Assembly (NCBI RefSeq): GCF_009649635.1
Contig: NZ_WJII01000001.1
Span: forward strand, 744,001-808,000
Direction: 5' to 3'
DNA length: 64,000 nucleotides
DNA from: Microbacterium sp. SYP-A9085
GTDB lineage: Bacteria; Actinomycetota; Actinomycetes; Actinomycetales; Microbacteriaceae
Shown here: piece by piece, positions 24,124 to 49,412 of the stretch
Numbering within the stretch: the stretch's first letter is position 1
Layout of the letters: each line of letters starts with the position of its first letter
The notes under the pieces: model-generated
The model's input: only the letters and a program-made list of their open reading frames with translations
Database searches by the model: none
What the model was told of the DNA's origin: nothing
Translations under genes and position numbers: made by a program

Positions 24124-24661
24124 GTCGCAGAAGGTGCGGGTTGCGGAGGTCGGATGCCCCATCTTGTGCGACTCGTTGCGCGGCCGGTCGCACAAGATGC
24201 GGGTCCTCGGCTTCGGAAGTCGCGCTTTGTGCGACACGATCGGTGGCCGGTCGTTCCCGGCAGTGGATGTCGGGCTGGGCAGTGGATGTCGGGCTGGGCA
24301 GAGGATGTCGCAGAACATGCGGGTGCGAGCCCCGGCATCCCGCACTTTGTGTGACACGGGCGACCGGTCGCAGAAACTGCGACTTCCTGACCCGGGATGC
24401 CGCATCTTCTGCGACACCGAGTGCGGCGGGTCGCAGAAGGTGGGGTTCGAGCGTGGGATGCCTCACCCGGCAGGACCGGAATGGGTGTCGCAGAAGATGC
24501 GACTGTTGGCGACGGCATCCCGCACCTTGTGCGACACGATTCCAGGCCGGTCGCAGAACACGCGGGTGCAGGCCCCTGCATCCCGCACCTTGTGCGACAC
24601 GATTCCAGGCCGGTCGCAGAAGGTATGGCCTCCGGGCACCGGATGCCGCATCTTGTGTGAC
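24124..24661. repeat. Array of 49-nt hairpin units, period about 63 bp
   Basis: Seven clear units, each exactly 49 nt from GTCGC to GCGAC/GTGAC, start at 24124, 24187, 24307, 24367, 24487, 24550 and 24613; decayed units start at 24250 and 24430. Successive starts are 57-63 bp apart. Each unit is an imperfect palindrome: left arm like GTCGCAGAAGATGCGGG, about 15 nt of variable loop often containing GGATGCC or GGCATCC, and right arm like CCGCATCTTGTGCGAC. Spacers of 14 nt such as acgattccaggccg separate most units. Two 20-bp direct repeats (CAGTGGATGTCGGGCTGG) sit inside the third period. No gene was found here. The same unit geometry recurs at 34600-35056. Confidence 0.93.
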
Positions 24662-31796: not shown

Positions 31797-33341
31797 ATGT
31801 CCCAGGATGCGATCCTTCAGATGCGCGCCATCACGAAGGAGTTCCCCGGCGTCAAGGCGCTGTCCGAGGTGACCCTCACCGTGCAGCGCGGCGAAGTGCA
31901 CGCGATCTGCGGCGAGAACGGCGCCGGCAAGTCCACGCTGATGAACGTGCTCTCGGGGGTGTACCCGCACGGCACGTACGACGGCGACATCGTCTACGAC
32001 GGGCAGGTGTGCCGGTTCGCGAGCATCAACGATTCCGAGAAGGCCGGGATCGTCATCATCCACCAGGAGCTGGCCCTCAGCCCGTACCTGAGCATCGCCG
32101 AGAACATCTTCATCGGCAACGAGCAGGCCACCGCCGGGTGGATCGACTGGGGCCGCACCGAGACGCTCGCGCGCACGTACCTGGAACGGGTCGGCCTGCG
32201 CGACAACCCCGCCACGAAGGTCAGCGAGCTCGGCGTCGGCAAGCAGCAGCTGGTGGAGATCGCCAAGGCGCTGTCGAAGGACGTGAAGCTGCTGATCCTC
32301 GACGAGCCCACTGCGGCGCTGAACGACGACGACTCCGCGCGGCTGCTGGACCTGATCCTCGAGCTGAAGGCGCAGGGCGTCACCAGCATCCTCATCTCGC
32401 ACAAGCTCAACGAGATAAAGAAGGTCGCCGACACCGTCACGATCGTCCGCGACGGGCACACGATCGAGACGCTGGATGCCCGAAGCGACGACGTCAACGA
32501 GGACCGGATCATCAAGGGGATGGTGGGGCGCGACCTCACCCACCGGTTCCCCGAGCACACCCCGACGATCGGCGACGAACTGCTGCGCATCGAGGACTGG
32601 ACCGTGCACCACCCGTCCGACCGCACCCGCGTCGTGGTCGACCACGCGTCGCTCTCGGTGCGCGCCGGCGAGATCGTCGGCATCGCCGGGCTGATGGGCG
32701 CCGGGCGCACCGAGCTGGCGATGAGCGTGTTCGGGCACAGCTGGGGCGTGGACATCTCCGGCACCGTGTACAAGCGCGGCGTGCCGGTGAGCACCCGCTC
32801 CGTGCCCGCCGCGATCCGGGCGGGCCTGGCGTATGCCACCGAGGACCGGAAGACGTACGGACTGAACCTCATCGACGACATCGCCCGCAACATCTCCGCC
32901 GCGAGCCTCCTGAAGCTCAGCCGCCAGGGCTGGGTGGACCGCAACCGCGAGCACGTGATCGCCGAGGACTACCGGCGCAGCATGAACATCAAGGCCCCCT
33001 CCGTGGCCACGCTCACCGGCAAACTGTCCGGCGGCAACCAGCAGAAGGTCGTGCTGTCCAAGTGGATGTTCGCCGACCCCGACGTGCTGATCCTGGACGA
33101 ACCCACCCGCGGCATCGACGTGGGCGCGAAGTACGAGATCTACACGATCATCGACCGGCTCGCCGATGAGGGCCGCGGCATCATCGTGATCTCGTCGGAG
33201 CTGCCCGAGCTGATCGGGCTGTGCGACCGCATCTACACGCTGTCCGAGGGCGTGATCACCGCCGAGGTGCCGCGGGACGCGGCATCCCCCGAACGACTCA
33301 TGCAGAGCATGACCAAGATCCGAGAAGAGGACCACCTATGA
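31797..33341 (+). CDS. Monosaccharide ABC transporter ATP-binding protein (GguA/XylG-like)
   Basis: A 514-residue protein with two ABC domains. Domain 1: Walker [17 protein letters not shown] near residue 40, signature [20 protein letters not shown], Walker [16 protein letters not shown]. Domain 2: [16 protein letters not shown] in place of Walker A (a usual deviation), [20 protein letters not shown] and [18 protein letters not shown]. This duplicated layout is typical of CUT2 sugar ATPases (XylG, RbsA, GguA). The start ATG follows AGGAGGAG. It overlaps the permease gene by ATGA and energises uptake of the sugar bound by the ChvE-like protein. Confidence 0.94.
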
Positions 33342-34555
33342 GCACGACGCAGCTGACGCCCCCGCGCACCGGGGGCCTGATCGGCAGCACCGTGTCGTAC
33401 ATGGGCGGGCAGCTGCGCCAGGTGGGCCTGTTCATCGCGCTGATCGTCATCGTGCTGTTCTTCCAGGTCGTCACGAACGGCATCACGCTGAGCCCGCGCA
33501 ACGTGTCGAACCTGATCGTGCAGAACAGTTACATCCTGATCCTCGCGATCGGGATGGTGATGGTCATCATCGCCGGGCACATCGACCTGTCGGTGGGGTC
33601 GGTGGTGGCCGTGATCGGCGCGCTCGCCGGCGTCCTCAACAACAAGATGGGGCTGCCGTGGTGGATGACGGTGCTGCTGTGCCTGCTGGCGGGCGCCGTG
33701 ATCGGGGCGTGGCAGGGGTTCTGGATCGCGTACTTCCACATCGAGTCGTTCATCGTCACGCTCGGCGGGATGCTGCTGTTCCGCGGGCTCGCGCAGATCC
33801 TGCTGCACAACACGCAGATCTCCCCGTTCGACGACGGATTCCGCGCGATCGGGTCCGGGTTCCTGCCGGATCTCGGCGGCGGGACGTCGTACCTCGAGCC
33901 GCTGACGATGATCCTCGGCGTCGGCGCGGTGGTCGCCCTGATCGGCATGAATCTGCGCTCGCGGCGCGCCCGCGCGAAGAACGGGCTGACGCTCGAGCCG
34001 ATCGGCTGGTTCGCGCTGAAGACAGCGTTCATGGCGGTGCTGATCCTCGGCATCGCGTGGCTGCTGGCCAGCTACCGCGGCACACCGGTGGTGCTCGTGA
34101 TCCTCGGAGTGCTGGTCGTCGCATACTCCGCGGTGATGGCGAACTCCGTGTTCGGCCGGCACGTGTACGCAATCGGCGGCAACAAGAGGGCGGCGAAGCT
34201 CAGCGGCGTGAATGTCGACCGGGTGGGCTTCCTGCTGTTCGTGAACATCGGGGTGCTGTCGGCCCTGGCCGGCCTCGTCTTCACGGCGCAGCTGAATCTC
34301 GCCGGCCCCAGCGCCGGCAACGGCTTCGAGCTGGATGCCATCGCCGCCGTGTTCATCGGTGGGGCCGCCGTCAGCGGCGGCGTGGGCACTATCGGCGGCG
34401 CCATCGTCGGCGGCCTGATCATCGGCGTGCTCAACAACGGCATGACGATCCTCGGCGTGGGCACGGAGTGGCAGGAATTCATCAAGGGCCTCGTGCTGCT
34501 GGCCGCCGTCGCGTTCGACGTCATCAACAAGAGGCGCGGCGCCGGGGCGCGGTAG
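33338..34555 (+). CDS. Monosaccharide ABC transporter permease (GguB/XylH-like)
   Basis: A 405-residue multi-pass membrane protein of the CUT2 permease family. Conserved segments are [40 protein letters not shown] and [20 protein letters not shown]. Its length, with an inserted region around residues 170-240 containing hydrophobic helices, matches GguB/XylH-type permeases, which are longer than RbsC. It starts inside the ATPase stop (ATGA). A triplicated hairpin repeat begins 45 bp after its stop. Confidence 0.93.
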
Positions 34556-34599
34556 CGGGCTGGTCCGGGCGAGCGCAGCGGCTGCCAGTGCGCGATCGT

Positions 34600-35056
34600 G
34601 TCGCAGAAGAGGCGGGTTCGGAGGCGCTGACGCCGCGTGTTGTGCGACACGGTGGGGTGGATGTCGCACAACACGCGGGTTCGGCGGCGATCAGGCCGCA
34701 TGTTCTGCGACACGGTCGGCGGCGGCATCCCGAGCCCCTGTGGGCTGGCGCCCCGCACCACCTGAACGTCGTGTCGCACAACCTGCGGGTTCGGGCGGTC
34801 TGATGCCGCGTGTTGTGTGACACGGTGGGGTGGATGTCGCACAACACGCGGGTTCGCGGGGGATCAGGCCGCACGTTCTGTGACACCGTCGGGGACGGCA
34901 TCCCGAGCCACTGTGAGCTGCCGCCCCCACCCCCTGAACTTCGCGTCGCAGAAGATGCGGGTTTGGGCGGCCTGATGCCGCATCTTGTGCGACACGGTGG
35001 GGTGGATGTCGCACAAGATGCGGGTTCGCGCGGGATCAGGCCCCATCTTCTGCGAC
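34600..35056. repeat. Triplicated array of paired 49-nt hairpins
   Basis: Six 49-nt units start at 34600, 34663, 34773, 34836, 34945 and 35008. They form three pairs with 63 bp between starts inside each pair and about 172 bp between pairs, so a roughly 172-bp block is present three times. Each unit is a palindrome ending GTCGC...GCGAC or GTGAC with 17-nt arms such as GTCGCACAACACGCGGG and GCCGCATGTTCTGCGAC. The 14-nt spacer inside each pair is acggtggggtggat. The inter-pair segment contains GGCATCCCGAGCC. This is the same unit length and spacing as in the array at 24124-24661, but with different inner arms. No gene was found in 34556-35253. Confidence 0.93.
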
Positions 35057-35253
35057 ACGGTCGGGGACGGCATCCCGAACCGCCGCCGGCGCCGGGCCGG
35101 CATCCCCGGCGAACACTCCGTATCCCGCTGGCAGGCACCCCGAACGCGGGTGCTCCGTGTCGGAGGGGGGTGCCATCGTAGGCAGCCTGATGCTGCGCCG
35201 CGATCGGCGGGGCGGCTGGCCCACTCGACAGCACCCATGAGGAGGTGCCCGGG

Positions 35254-37332
35254 ATGAACAGAGTCGCCGCCGCCGTCTGTGCGATCACCGTCGCTGCCAT
35301 CGCCGTCGTCGCGGCTTCCGCGGTCGCGAATGCCCGGGGCACGGATGTCGTGATCGACCACGTCTACGGGGGCGGCGGCAACCCCGGCTCCACGATCGAT
35401 GCGTCGGACGCGGCATCCGCGGTCGCGATCGCGCAGATCCAGGGCACCGACACCGACACCTCGCCGTACGTCGGGCGGACCGTGACCACCACCGGCGTCG
35501 TCACCGCGGCCTACCCGACCGGCGGGTTCAACGGCTTCTACCTGCAGACCGGCGGCTCGGGCGGCGCACCCGACGCCACGCCCGGGGCATCCGACGGGAT
35601 CTTCGTGTTCGGCTCGCAGTCCGCGGCGGCCGTCACGATCGGCGAGAGCGTGAGCGTCACCGCCGAGGTGCAGGAGCACCAGGGCACCACCGAGCTCGCC
35701 TTTCCCACCGTGACGAAGCTCGACGAGCCCCTGCCGGCCGTGACCGCCGGCGCGCTGGGATGGACCGCGCTGGACACCCCGGCCGAGAAGGAGGCGCACG
35801 AGGGCGAGCTGCTCGCCCCGCAGGGCCCGTTCACGGTGACCGACAACGACGACACGAATGTCTACGGATCGCTCGTGCTGGCCGCCGGCACCGCCCCGCT
35901 GGTGCAGCCGACCGACGCGGGCACTGCCGGCAGCGATGCGGCGAAGGCCGCGGTGGCCGACAACGCGCGCCGGGCTATCACGCTCGACGACGGCTCGACG
36001 TGGAACTACGCCGTGTTCGGCTCGCACACCGGCGACCCGCTGCCGTGGCTGACCGCCGAGAATCACCCGCGGGTGGGCGCTGCCGTCACGTTCACGGCCC
36101 CGGTGGTCCTCGAGTACCGGTTCGACGCGTGGAACTTCCAACCCACGCACCAGATCACCGATGCGGGCACGGATGTCGCCACGTTCGCCGACACCCGTGC
36201 CGACAACCAGCATCCCGCCGCCGTCGGCGGTGACGTGCGCCTGGCCGCGTTCAACGTGGAGAACTACTTCGCGCTGACCGGCGAGGAGTACGTGGCGCAG
36301 GGCCTCGGCACGTGCACCTGGTACGACGACCGCGACGGCGACCACGTCACGGACAACCGGTGCGCCACGGCCGACGGCAGCCCCGGCCCGCGGGGAGCGG
36401 CGACGGCGGCGAGCTTCGCGCGGCAGCAGGCGAAGATCGTCACCGGCATCAACCGGCTCGATGCCGGCATCGTGTCGCTGGAGGAGGTCGAGAACTCGGT
36501 GAAGTTCGGCCAGAACCGGGATGCCGCGCTCGCCGGACTCGTGCACGCGCTGAACGCCGCGGCCGGGTCGGACGTCTGGGGGTACGTGCCGTCGCCGGAC
36601 GCCGCCGACCTGCCGCCGATCGCGCAGCAGGACGTCATCCGCACCGCGTTCATCTACCAGCCGGCCGAGGTGATGCCAGTGGGTGTCTCGCACGTGCTCA
36701 GCGACAAGTCCGGCCCCGGGCAGTCGTTCTCGATCGCGCGCGAGCCGCTCGCGCAGGCGTTCGCGAAGGTCGGGGCGTCTGCGGAGGACGCGTTCCTGGT
36801 GGTGGCCAACCACTTCAAGTCGAAGGGGGCGGATGCCGACGGCATGTTCGACGGCTGCGTCAACGGCGGCGACGCCGAGAACACCGACCCCGCATACGAT
36901 CAGGGCGCGTTCACCTGCACCCGGGTGCACGAGGCACGGGATGCCGCGGCGTTCGCCGAGGCGACGGCGGCGGCGATCGGCACGGACCGGATCTTCCTGC
37001 TCGGCGACGTCAACGCGTACACGCACGAGGATCCGATGCAGGAGCTGTACGCGGCCGGGTACACCGACCTGGGCAGCGTGTTCGGGCCGGCCGAGGCGAC
37101 GTATTCGTTCGACGGGATGTCGGGGTCGCTCGACCACGTGCTGGCGAACCCGGCCGCCCGCGCGATGGTCACCGGCGCGCACGTGTGGCAGATCAACGCG
37201 CAGGAGTCGGTCGCGTACGCGTACAGCCGGTACGACGACAACGCGCGGCAGCTGTTCGACGCGAGCGACCCGTTCGCGGCATCCGACCACAACCCGGTGG
37301 TGGTGGGGCTGACGCTGGTGCTCGCTCGTTAG
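35254..37332 (+). CDS. Secreted ExeM/NucH-type endonuclease/phosphatase
   Basis: A 692-residue exported protein. The N-terminus VAAAVCAITVAAIAVVAASA is a signal peptide, followed by a short region with IDHVYGGGGNPGSTI and an OB-fold-like segment (VGRTVTTTGVVTAAYPTGGF, NGFYLQTGG). The C-terminal half is an exonuclease-endonuclease-phosphatase domain: VRLAAFNVENYFALTG, GIVSLEEVENSVKFG, VANHFKSKGADADG, FLLGDVNAYTHEDPM and FAASDHNPVVVGLTL, the metal and catalytic motifs including the final SDHxP. This matches ExeM/NucH extracellular DNases. It probably degrades external DNA for nutrients or biofilm turnover. The start follows GGAGG at 35241-35245. It is a single gene. Confidence 0.92.
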   Translation: MNRVAAAVCAITVAAIAVVAASAVANARGTDVVIDHVYGGGGNPGSTIDASDAASAVAIAQIQGTDTDTSPYVGRTVTTTGVVTAAYPTGGFNGFYLQTGGSGGAPDATPGASDGIFVFGSQSAAAVTIGESVSVTAEVQEHQGTTELAFPTVTKLDEPLPAVTAGALGWTALDTPAEKEAHEGELLAPQGPFTVTDNDDTNVYGSLVLAAGTAPLVQPTDAGTAGSDAAKAAVADNARRAITLDDGSTWNYAVFGSHTGDPLPWLTAENHPRVGAAVTFTAPVVLEYRFDAWNFQPTHQITDAGTDVATFADTRADNQHPAAVGGDVRLAAFNVENYFALTGEEYVAQGLGTCTWYDDRDGDHVTDNRCATADGSPGPRGAATAASFARQQAKIVTGINRLDAGIVSLEEVENSVKFGQNRDAALAGLVHALNAAAGSDVWGYVPSPDAADLPPIAQQDVIRTAFIYQPAEVMPVGVSHVLSDKSGPGQSFSIAREPLAQAFAKVGASAEDAFLVVANHFKSKGADADGMFDGCVNGGDAENTDPAYDQGAFTCTRVHEARDAAAFAEATAAAIGTDRIFLLGDVNAYTHEDPMQELYAAGYTDLGSVFGPAEATYSFDGMSGSLDHVLANPAARAMVTGAHVWQINAQESVAYAYSRYDDNARQLFDASDPFAASDHNPVVVGLTLVLAR

Positions 37333-48613: not shown

Positions 48614-49066
48614 TCACCTAGTCCTGACCTGGCTATCGGTTTGCGAAGCCCGGTCGCCGAAGTCAAGTACCGCTGCGATTGAGTCCGCCACTTCTGCCGG
48701 ATCCTCATGCTCCCAGAACCGGAGCACGGTCCATCCGGCAGCTCGCAGTAACTCATTTGTCTCTTGATCTCGGTCGCGATTTCGCTGAATCTTCGGTCCC
48801 CAGTACTCGACGTGGGAGCGGGGCATCGCGAGGTGAGTGGGACAGCCATGCCAGAAGCATCCGTCGATGAAGACTGCCACGCGTCGACGTGTGAAGACCA
48901 CGTCTGCTGTTCGCCGGAGGGTCCGGTCAGGCCGGAAATTGGTGCGGTAACGCAGGCCGCGCGCGTGTAGCAGAGACCGGACTGCCAGCTCGGGGGCAGT
49001 GTCCCTTGAACGGTTCGCAATCATGGTTCGGCGTGCCCGTTCGCTCGTCGCCCACGAGTTCGTCAC
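48614..49066 (-). CDS. vsr: Very short patch repair endonuclease (Vsr)
   Basis: A 150-residue nickase: RTMIANRSRDTAPELAVRSL at the N-terminus, ADVVFTRRRVAVFIDGCFWH with the catalytic Asp, then GCPTHLAMPRSHVEYWGPKI and GWTVLRFWEHEDP. These match Vsr, which cuts T:G mismatches arising from deamination of 5-methylcytosine, and is typically paired with a C5-methylase. The GTG at 49066 gives the usual length; no clear ribosome site lies before it. It is convergent with the methyltransferase gene and completes the restriction-modification module. Confidence 0.93.
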   Translation of the reverse strand: MTNSWATSERARRTMIANRSRDTAPELAVRSLLHARGLRYRTNFRPDRTLRRTADVVFTRRRVAVFIDGCFWHGCPTHLAMPRSHVEYWGPKIQRNRDRDQETNELLRAAGWTVLRFWEHEDPAEVADSIAAVLDFGDRASQTDSQVRTR

Positions 49067-49412
49067 ACTGACAGAGTACGTTAGAGATCTGGCGAGCCCA
49101 ACCTCCTGGAGGCTCCAGAGCTGGGGTAACGTCTTCGGAGTCTCGGTTCCCCGCCCGTCCTTCGCTGTGGCATAGGACGAAGGCGGATACACGAAGTTTG
49201 CCCTCGGCGCCGAGTGAGGCGCATCGAGGCCCGTTGGCATCTTCGCGGGGCGCTCGGCTATTCGGCGACACTGCTGCCGCTAGCCACGGCTCTGGCTGTC
49301 GCCTCTACCAGTGAGATCGCCCGGCTGATCAGGGAGAAGCTCATGCGCCCATAGAATCGGTGCGAGGATAGTCCCGATCACGAAGCGGAAGCCGAGTCAG
49401 TCAAAGGAGCGC
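49067..49412. other. Intergenic region between vsr and the two-gene unit
   Basis: 346 bp between divergent genes, with no supported gene. It should contain promoters for both. No clear hexamers, palindrome or mobile-element end was found. AAGGAG at 49404-49409 is the ribosome site for the next gene. Confidence 0.5.

Follow-up and report, generated by a model that had tools for sequence, protein, structure and literature searches.

REP and REPIN (repetitive extragenic palindromic) sequences are short intergenic palindromes, often paired and dispersed over a genome that may hold several classes, and the gene of the REP-associated tyrosine transposase (RAYT) is flanked by its own palindrome class (PMC3116915; PMC3733652). 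One type, the CGTC-type REPs, is described as apparently lacking a dedicated transposase, in a paper whose main text makes no mention of "Actinobacteria" (PMC3733652). AbiEi binds inverted repeats of another kind, two of 23 bp separated by 3 bp (49 bp in all), while the sites of Rv2827c comprise four 23-bp repeats separated by 13 and 4 bp, that is, a period of 63 bp (PMC7319586). Here we describe an array of inverted repeats at positions 34600..35056 of a 64,000-nt stretch of Microbacterium sp. SYP-A9085 DNA (contig NZ_WJII01000001.1, positions 744,001 to 808,000; hereafter, the window), the dispersed family to which this array belongs, and a gene for a nuclease-type protein flanked by the same repeats. 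We consider it probable (about 0.72), based on sequence comparison and a structure model, that the arrays are docking sites of this genome-encoded protein, bound as duplex DNA, and that their units act as inverted half-sites rather than as working hairpins.

On the nuclease side, the closest described proteins are of the Vsr type. The founder MTES_1575 of Microbacterium testaceum combines a Vsr domain with HEPN, transglutaminase and winged helix-turn-helix domains in one long chain, and what PMC3710099 says of this protein does not mention repeats. VsrA of Caulobacter has a Vsr-like fold, belongs to DUF559 and triggers a DNA-damage response when a cytosine methylase is absent; the partner protein described here resembles it in the Vsr-like fold and DUF559, and the account of VsrA does not describe repeats (PMC12907096). 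Compared with the I-Bth0305I homing endonuclease and the Vsr repair endonuclease, the partner protein likewise has a predicted Vsr-type PD-(D/E)XK fold but differs in having an AbiEi-like part in front and in that its repeats flank the gene.

The repeat lengths equal those of AbiEi-type operators (23+3+23 = 49 and 49+14 = 63), a comparison made by length only, and the N-terminal part of the partner protein is modelled with the AbiEi fold. The two coinciding lengths together with the fold match are the main reason for reading the repeats as duplex binding sites. Unlike AbiEi and Rv2827c, which belong to type IV toxin-antitoxin systems, the partner protein would fuse its AbiEi-like part to a nuclease-type domain; its sites flank the gene on both sides and are dispersed rather than confined to the promoter, and no constant adjoining gene, such as that of a nucleotidyltransferase toxin, was found among 346 neighbouring open reading frames (ORFs) of 79 loci. 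As in REP/RAYT systems, the gene is flanked by the same palindrome class. By contrast with the tagged 20-40-bp hairpins of those systems, the units are 49 nt long and consist of two independent half-sites, and no unpaired GTAG/CGTC tag of REP stems was found in the unit flank columns (85 units). The enzyme also differs from RAYT in its predicted Vsr fold and AbiEi-like part. A RAYT as the partner enzyme was rejected for this genome (G000), in which the Y1 (HUH) tyrosine transposase family PF01797 has no match; the same search was positive in 5 of 14 genomes. In the open-access literature searched, also for AbiEi together with DUF559, no description of such a pairing of repeats with a nuclease gene was found.

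The array and its family in the genome

The array consists of six 49-nt units, GTCGCASAA-N31-TTSTGYGAC, arranged in three pairs, as an earlier note on this DNA had proposed and a pattern search confirmed. Start-to-start distances are 63 bp within all three pairs, and 110 and 109 bp between them. The units and the blocks that contain them are as follows (no strand assigned).

34600..34648, pair 1, first unit (49 nt, with two inverted half-sites)
34663..34711, pair 1, second unit, starting 63 bp 3' of the first
34773..34821, pair 2, first unit
34836..34884, pair 2, second unit
34945..34993, pair 3, first unit
35008..35056, pair 3, second unit
34596..35099, the three 159-nt blocks, duplicated locally (34596-34754, 34769-34927, 34941-35099)

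The triplicated 172-bp block claimed in the earlier note was recovered at 34596, 34769 and 34941, with offsets of 173 and 172. Over 159 nt, block identities are 0.868 (1-2), 0.805 (1-3) and 0.824 (2-3); this divergence of 13-19% speaks against the triplication being an assembly artefact. Identities of the doublets at positions outside the half-sites are 0.806 (1-2), 0.75 (1-3) and 0.917 (2-3).

The window holds 23 copies of GTCGCASAA (1.38 expected; at most 4 in 100 shuffles), all of which fall in this array or in a sister array about 10 kb away. The sister array has the same 49-nt unit and a similar geometry, in agreement with the earlier note, yet the two are not independent hairpin arrays as that note held: both belong to one dispersed family. 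A search of the genome with the array DNA gave 63 matches on both strands, the array itself counted, and the box pattern with a free gap of 22-36 matched 37 times on the forward and 34 times on the reverse strand, whereas the reversed control pattern had no match on either; all pattern matches listed are 49 nt long. The remaining features of the array's surroundings are given below.

24124..24661, no strand, sister array of the same family with 7 units (starts 24124, 24187, 24307, 24367, 24487, 24550, 24613; spacings 63, 120, 60, 120, 63, 63) and a lone left half-site at 24430
33221..34555, + strand, upstream gene (longest ORF, judged by eye to be permease-like), its stop codon 44 nt 5' of the first unit
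35245..37332, + strand, downstream gene, 188 nt past the last unit; it runs in the same direction as the upstream gene

In total, more than 20 arrays of evenly spaced inverted repeats are scattered over the genome, mostly between genes. When 22 regions, namely the window and 21 further stretches, were scanned with relaxed criteria, 87 units were found, 85 of 49 nt and two of 48 nt. Counting 49-nt units only, they form 24 doublets, 9 singles, 8 triplets and one quadruplet. Within runs (spacings below 65), 42 of 46 spacings are 63 bp, three are 62 and one is 60, whereas the larger spacings between runs vary from 92 to 163. At 4 of the 24 array positions located between predicted genes, the simple gene caller extended an open frame into the array. 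Helical phasing is not supported as a general rule in this genome, since R is 0.25 at 10.5 bp (0.52 at 10 bp) for the 21 spacings that differ from 63.

The nuclease-type gene and its flanks

The arrays are predicted to be docking sites because the same repeats flank a nuclease-type gene. In G000, units at 258445/258508 and 259717/259780/259893 of contig C7 enclose the gene 258612-259748; its longest frame runs into the first upstream unit, and the 323-aa form (P0001) starts past that unit. In G119 and in G114, a gene lies between two palindromes at a distance of about 1.05 kb, and likewise in G233, while G057 has a clear palindrome on one side of the gene and a weaker one (13/18 pairs) on the other. 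The five founding proteins align with each other, the others being 34-37% identical to the first. Their profile (E-value 1e−15) matches 144 of 199 genomes of the bacterial family and 95 of 99 of the genus, G000 included. We took 80 named loci, coming from Microbacterium, Cryobacterium, Arthrobacter, Agreia, Agromyces and others; the protein family is also present in Sinomonas and Arsenicicoccus, and the nearest named relatives by the partner gene are Microbacterium.

A confident structure model of the protein comprises an AbiEi-like N-terminal part, which matches a DNA-binding autorepressor, and a C-terminal part like Vsr/I-Bth0305I. The best Pfam match of the latter is PF18741 (MTES_1575-type Vsr REase domain), although P0001 itself scores 27.2 bits, under the curated cut-off of 38.2. 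At E 0.01, PF18741 is found in 74 and PF04480 in 44 of 86 members. Among 86 relatives, E216 never varies, and conservation reaches at least 90% for D249, H266 and D276; these four residues would represent the catalytic set of the I-Bth0305I/Vsr family. The PADLOC defence library gave no family for P0001 and L206, while its AbiEi models match L193 and L232; NCBIfam gave none for four proteins. No neighbour gene family, with functions read by eye, occurs in more than 10 of the 79 loci. The earlier note's proposal that a protein binds the arrays is thereby supported by a candidate, if a predicted one.

As a test of the flanking by shared repeats, we searched for a common word of at least 15 nt between the two 500-nt near flanks of each gene. 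Such a word is shared by the near flanks of 32 of 70 named loci (10 of the 80 were excluded as cut short) and by the far flanks of one; in the unnamed set the corresponding numbers are 30 and 3 of 58. Randomly paired different loci share one in 19 of 1000 cases. The unnamed set holds all five founders, two of which recur in the named set; after dropping the founders (7 loci) and the repeated proteins L150 and L159, the near flanks share a word in 58 of 119 loci and the far flanks in 4. Strong palindromes stand on both sides of 21 of 72 genes compared with 1 of 66 neighbour genes, and on either side of 53 of 72 compared with 11 of 66. In the unnamed set, they are present on both sides in 22 and on either side in 50 of 58 loci, the neighbour control covering the first set only. 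In other bacteria, repeats flank dozens of related genes in the same manner, and the repeat sequences are lineage-specific.

Two paralogs in G000, L280 (1457-2550) and L281 (1397-2810), each have their own, different palindrome class on both sides. Four of five other DUF559 loci of this genome share no flank word longer than 12 nt. The fifth, L284 (687-1547), has flank words of 15-16 nt in common, possibly as another repeat-gene pair of a different subfamily. The window itself contains a second Vsr-like ORF (48614-49240, − strand; DUF559 match 48671-48811), the flanks of which have no shared palindromes.

Palindromes in related genomes

Alike palindromes accompany 53 of 88 protein pairs at 60-90% identity, compared with about 3-4% of pairs below 45%, a trend that could be explained by descent alone. 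The inner arm varies from genome to genome and is largely common within each. Of the 99 genus genomes, 10 (G000 among them) contain the exact box with a free gap, always at 48 or 49 nt in the matches listed. Across the 199 family genomes, counts of GTCGCA-N36/37-TGCGAC are mostly near those of the reversed control, with a clear excess in G233 (19 vs 1) and G114 (5 vs 0); clear palindromes are also present in G101, G119, G129, G155 and G203 (counts/control 11/6, 4/1, 4/3, 5/3 and 4/4). The pattern alone is therefore a weak marker outside the genomes named and was rejected as a general one. G129 carries two identical 47-nt GTCGCACCCCCGC palindromes 127 bp apart (L099 1897-2070). Up to ten of the loci L174-L183 share neighbour gene families, yet several of them have different palindromes next to the nuclease gene, which amounts to site turnover at one conserved place.

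A second box, TGTCCCACTT-N-AAGTGGGACA, is found in 22 of 99 genus genomes, in up to 36 copies, and is absent from G000. In at least 11 of these 22 genomes, among the matches listed, its palindrome lies beside a gene of the protein family, as judged by comparing coordinates: within about 110 nt in G008, G009, G018, G032, G035, G044, G053, G054, G081 and G093, and within about 200 nt in G057. On whether spacing varies freely in other genomic copies, the point on which the earlier note had let its idea of functional spacing depend, the outcome is divided. Neighbouring TGTCCCACTT copies in G057 are 63, 126 or 189 bp apart, whereas other congeners space this box at 74 to 128 bp. The second-box inner arm of G057 still resembles the inner arm of the G000 units, so the common 63-bp spacing may be inherited.

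Half-sites, hairpins and the role of the arrays

Both arms of the units in G000 share the half-site consensus GTCGCASAA-SAT-GCGG-SWT, and in 82-83 of the 85 units positions 1-3 of the foot (GTC..GAC) are paired. No arm position, however, pairs significantly better than with shuffled partners in these units. Positions 7-20 together give 712 pairs with own arms, compared with 741 ± 11.6 after swapping, and anti-pairing is seen at position 7/43 (24/85, permutation 0.00015). One G-type and one C-type half-site are combined in 58 of 82 classifiable units. The earlier assumption that the units are kept as hairpins does not survive the arm-swap test, which rejects hairpin selection in G000. In the congeners G051 and G086, 48-nt units overlap with a 19-nt offset (L059-L062, L069-L070), so that two hairpins could not fold there at once. 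Single copies in other genomes are near-perfect palindromes, several of them in congeners lying directly 3' of a stop codon; one half-site consensus read twice in opposite directions would also yield such palindromes.

Between loci, we compared 40 doublets over 36 positions outside the half-sites (752 pairs from different loci). The top identity, 0.639, does not exceed the mean maximum of 0.656 in 30 column-shuffled sets. Within loci, the twelve highest identities are 0.69-0.92, the top one belonging to blocks 2 and 3 of the array at 34600..35056. Since positions outside the half-sites are at the shuffled level between loci, the half-sites and their spacing look to be under selection; the functional spacing suggested in the earlier note is upheld to the extent that 63 bp prevails within runs although loop and spacer positions show null identity between loci. 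The high identity within this locus and its lack between loci support the view, also advanced earlier, that the array was enlarged by local block amplification, other loci sharing only half-sites and geometry.

The best reading, by analogy, is that a population of repeats is paired with a dedicated enzyme as in REP/RAYT systems, the enzyme being an unrelated one. Two protein monomers would occupy each 49-bp unit, on two half-sites of about 23 bp placed 3 bp apart, and with the 63-bp unit period (six helical turns) consecutive dimers would lie on one face of the helix. With the array occupied, the nuclease part would nick or cut the DNA there or next to it. More tentatively, arrays would grow locally when a break is repaired from an adjacent copy, as suggested by the three blocks, and slow copying together with selection on bound sites might keep half-sites and spacing while the rest drifts.

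Several observations weigh against this docking-site interpretation. Near-perfect single-copy palindromes in other genomes are also compatible with a hairpin function there. The lack of any trace of between-locus copying in G000 weakens the part concerning spreading. The AbiEi structural match has a high root-mean-square deviation (5.5 Å), Foldseek alone finds nothing below E 0.001, and P0001 has no AbiEi match by sequence, though some relatives do. The G114 gene copy is broken by two in-frame stops. In 61 of 119 related genes, the flanks have no common 15-nt word; the founders G119 and G057 reach only 12 and 14 nt, and the paralog L281 14 nt. Strong palindromes are missing from both sides in 19 and from at least one side in 51 of 72 loci. 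To these should be added the flank words of the DUF559 locus L284 and the looser spacing of the second box in congeners other than G057.

Among the alternatives, the arrays may be a chromosomal binding platform for regulation, DNA bridging or as a protein sink, with no cutting at the sites. This would agree with half-sites and spacing being kept without visible copying, with the placement of the intergenic arrays (15 of 24 between tandem, 7 between convergent and 2 between divergent genes) and with the likeness of the N-terminal part to a DNA-binding autorepressor. We nevertheless hold it to be a minority possibility, as a pure binding protein would not obviously need the conserved E216, D249, H266 and D276. 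Similarly doubtful is a mainly selfish role, in which the units are REP-like mobile elements copied genome-wide by the nuclease in a homing-like manner. Outside the half-sites, none of the 752 between-locus doublet pairs exceeds the similarity reached by shuffled columns, which gives no sign of recent copying between loci. Nor was a syntenic empty site for the array at 34600..35056 recognised among the matches listed when 58 genomes, including G000, were searched at the DNA level; there, its two flanking genes match at separate places. RNA or DNA hairpins at gene ends (terminators or mRNA-stabilising stems) are very improbable: the shuffles of five of the six window units nearly all fold less well than the originals and the stop-codon-proximal palindromes of congeners would suit such hairpins, but the arm comparisons, the anti-paired position and the overlapping units argue otherwise, and Rfam gives no family at gathering score in the window.

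Returning to the docking-site interpretation, its furthest extension would be a REPtron without a transposase, in which an AbiEi-type DNA-binding part fused to a Vsr-type homing nuclease would keep and slowly spread its own operators, the sequence following the enzyme while the 49/63-bp ruler stays; at present we regard this as rather unlikely. For the orphan CGTC-type REPs of other phyla, a similar enzyme might be the missing partner. Until now, dispersed palindromes had been known to have tyrosine transposases as their dedicated enzymes, whereas here an unrelated nuclease-type protein would take that role, in a pairing that spans Microbacterium and related genera (Cryobacterium, Arthrobacter, Sinomonas, Agromyces, Arsenicicoccus and others). 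The protein-site pairs proposed here lend themselves readily to in vitro testing, and the natural set of sites differing between lineages would be useful for reading the rules of DNA recognition. For proteins known only as DUF559 or REase_MTES_1575, the pairing provides a functional lead.
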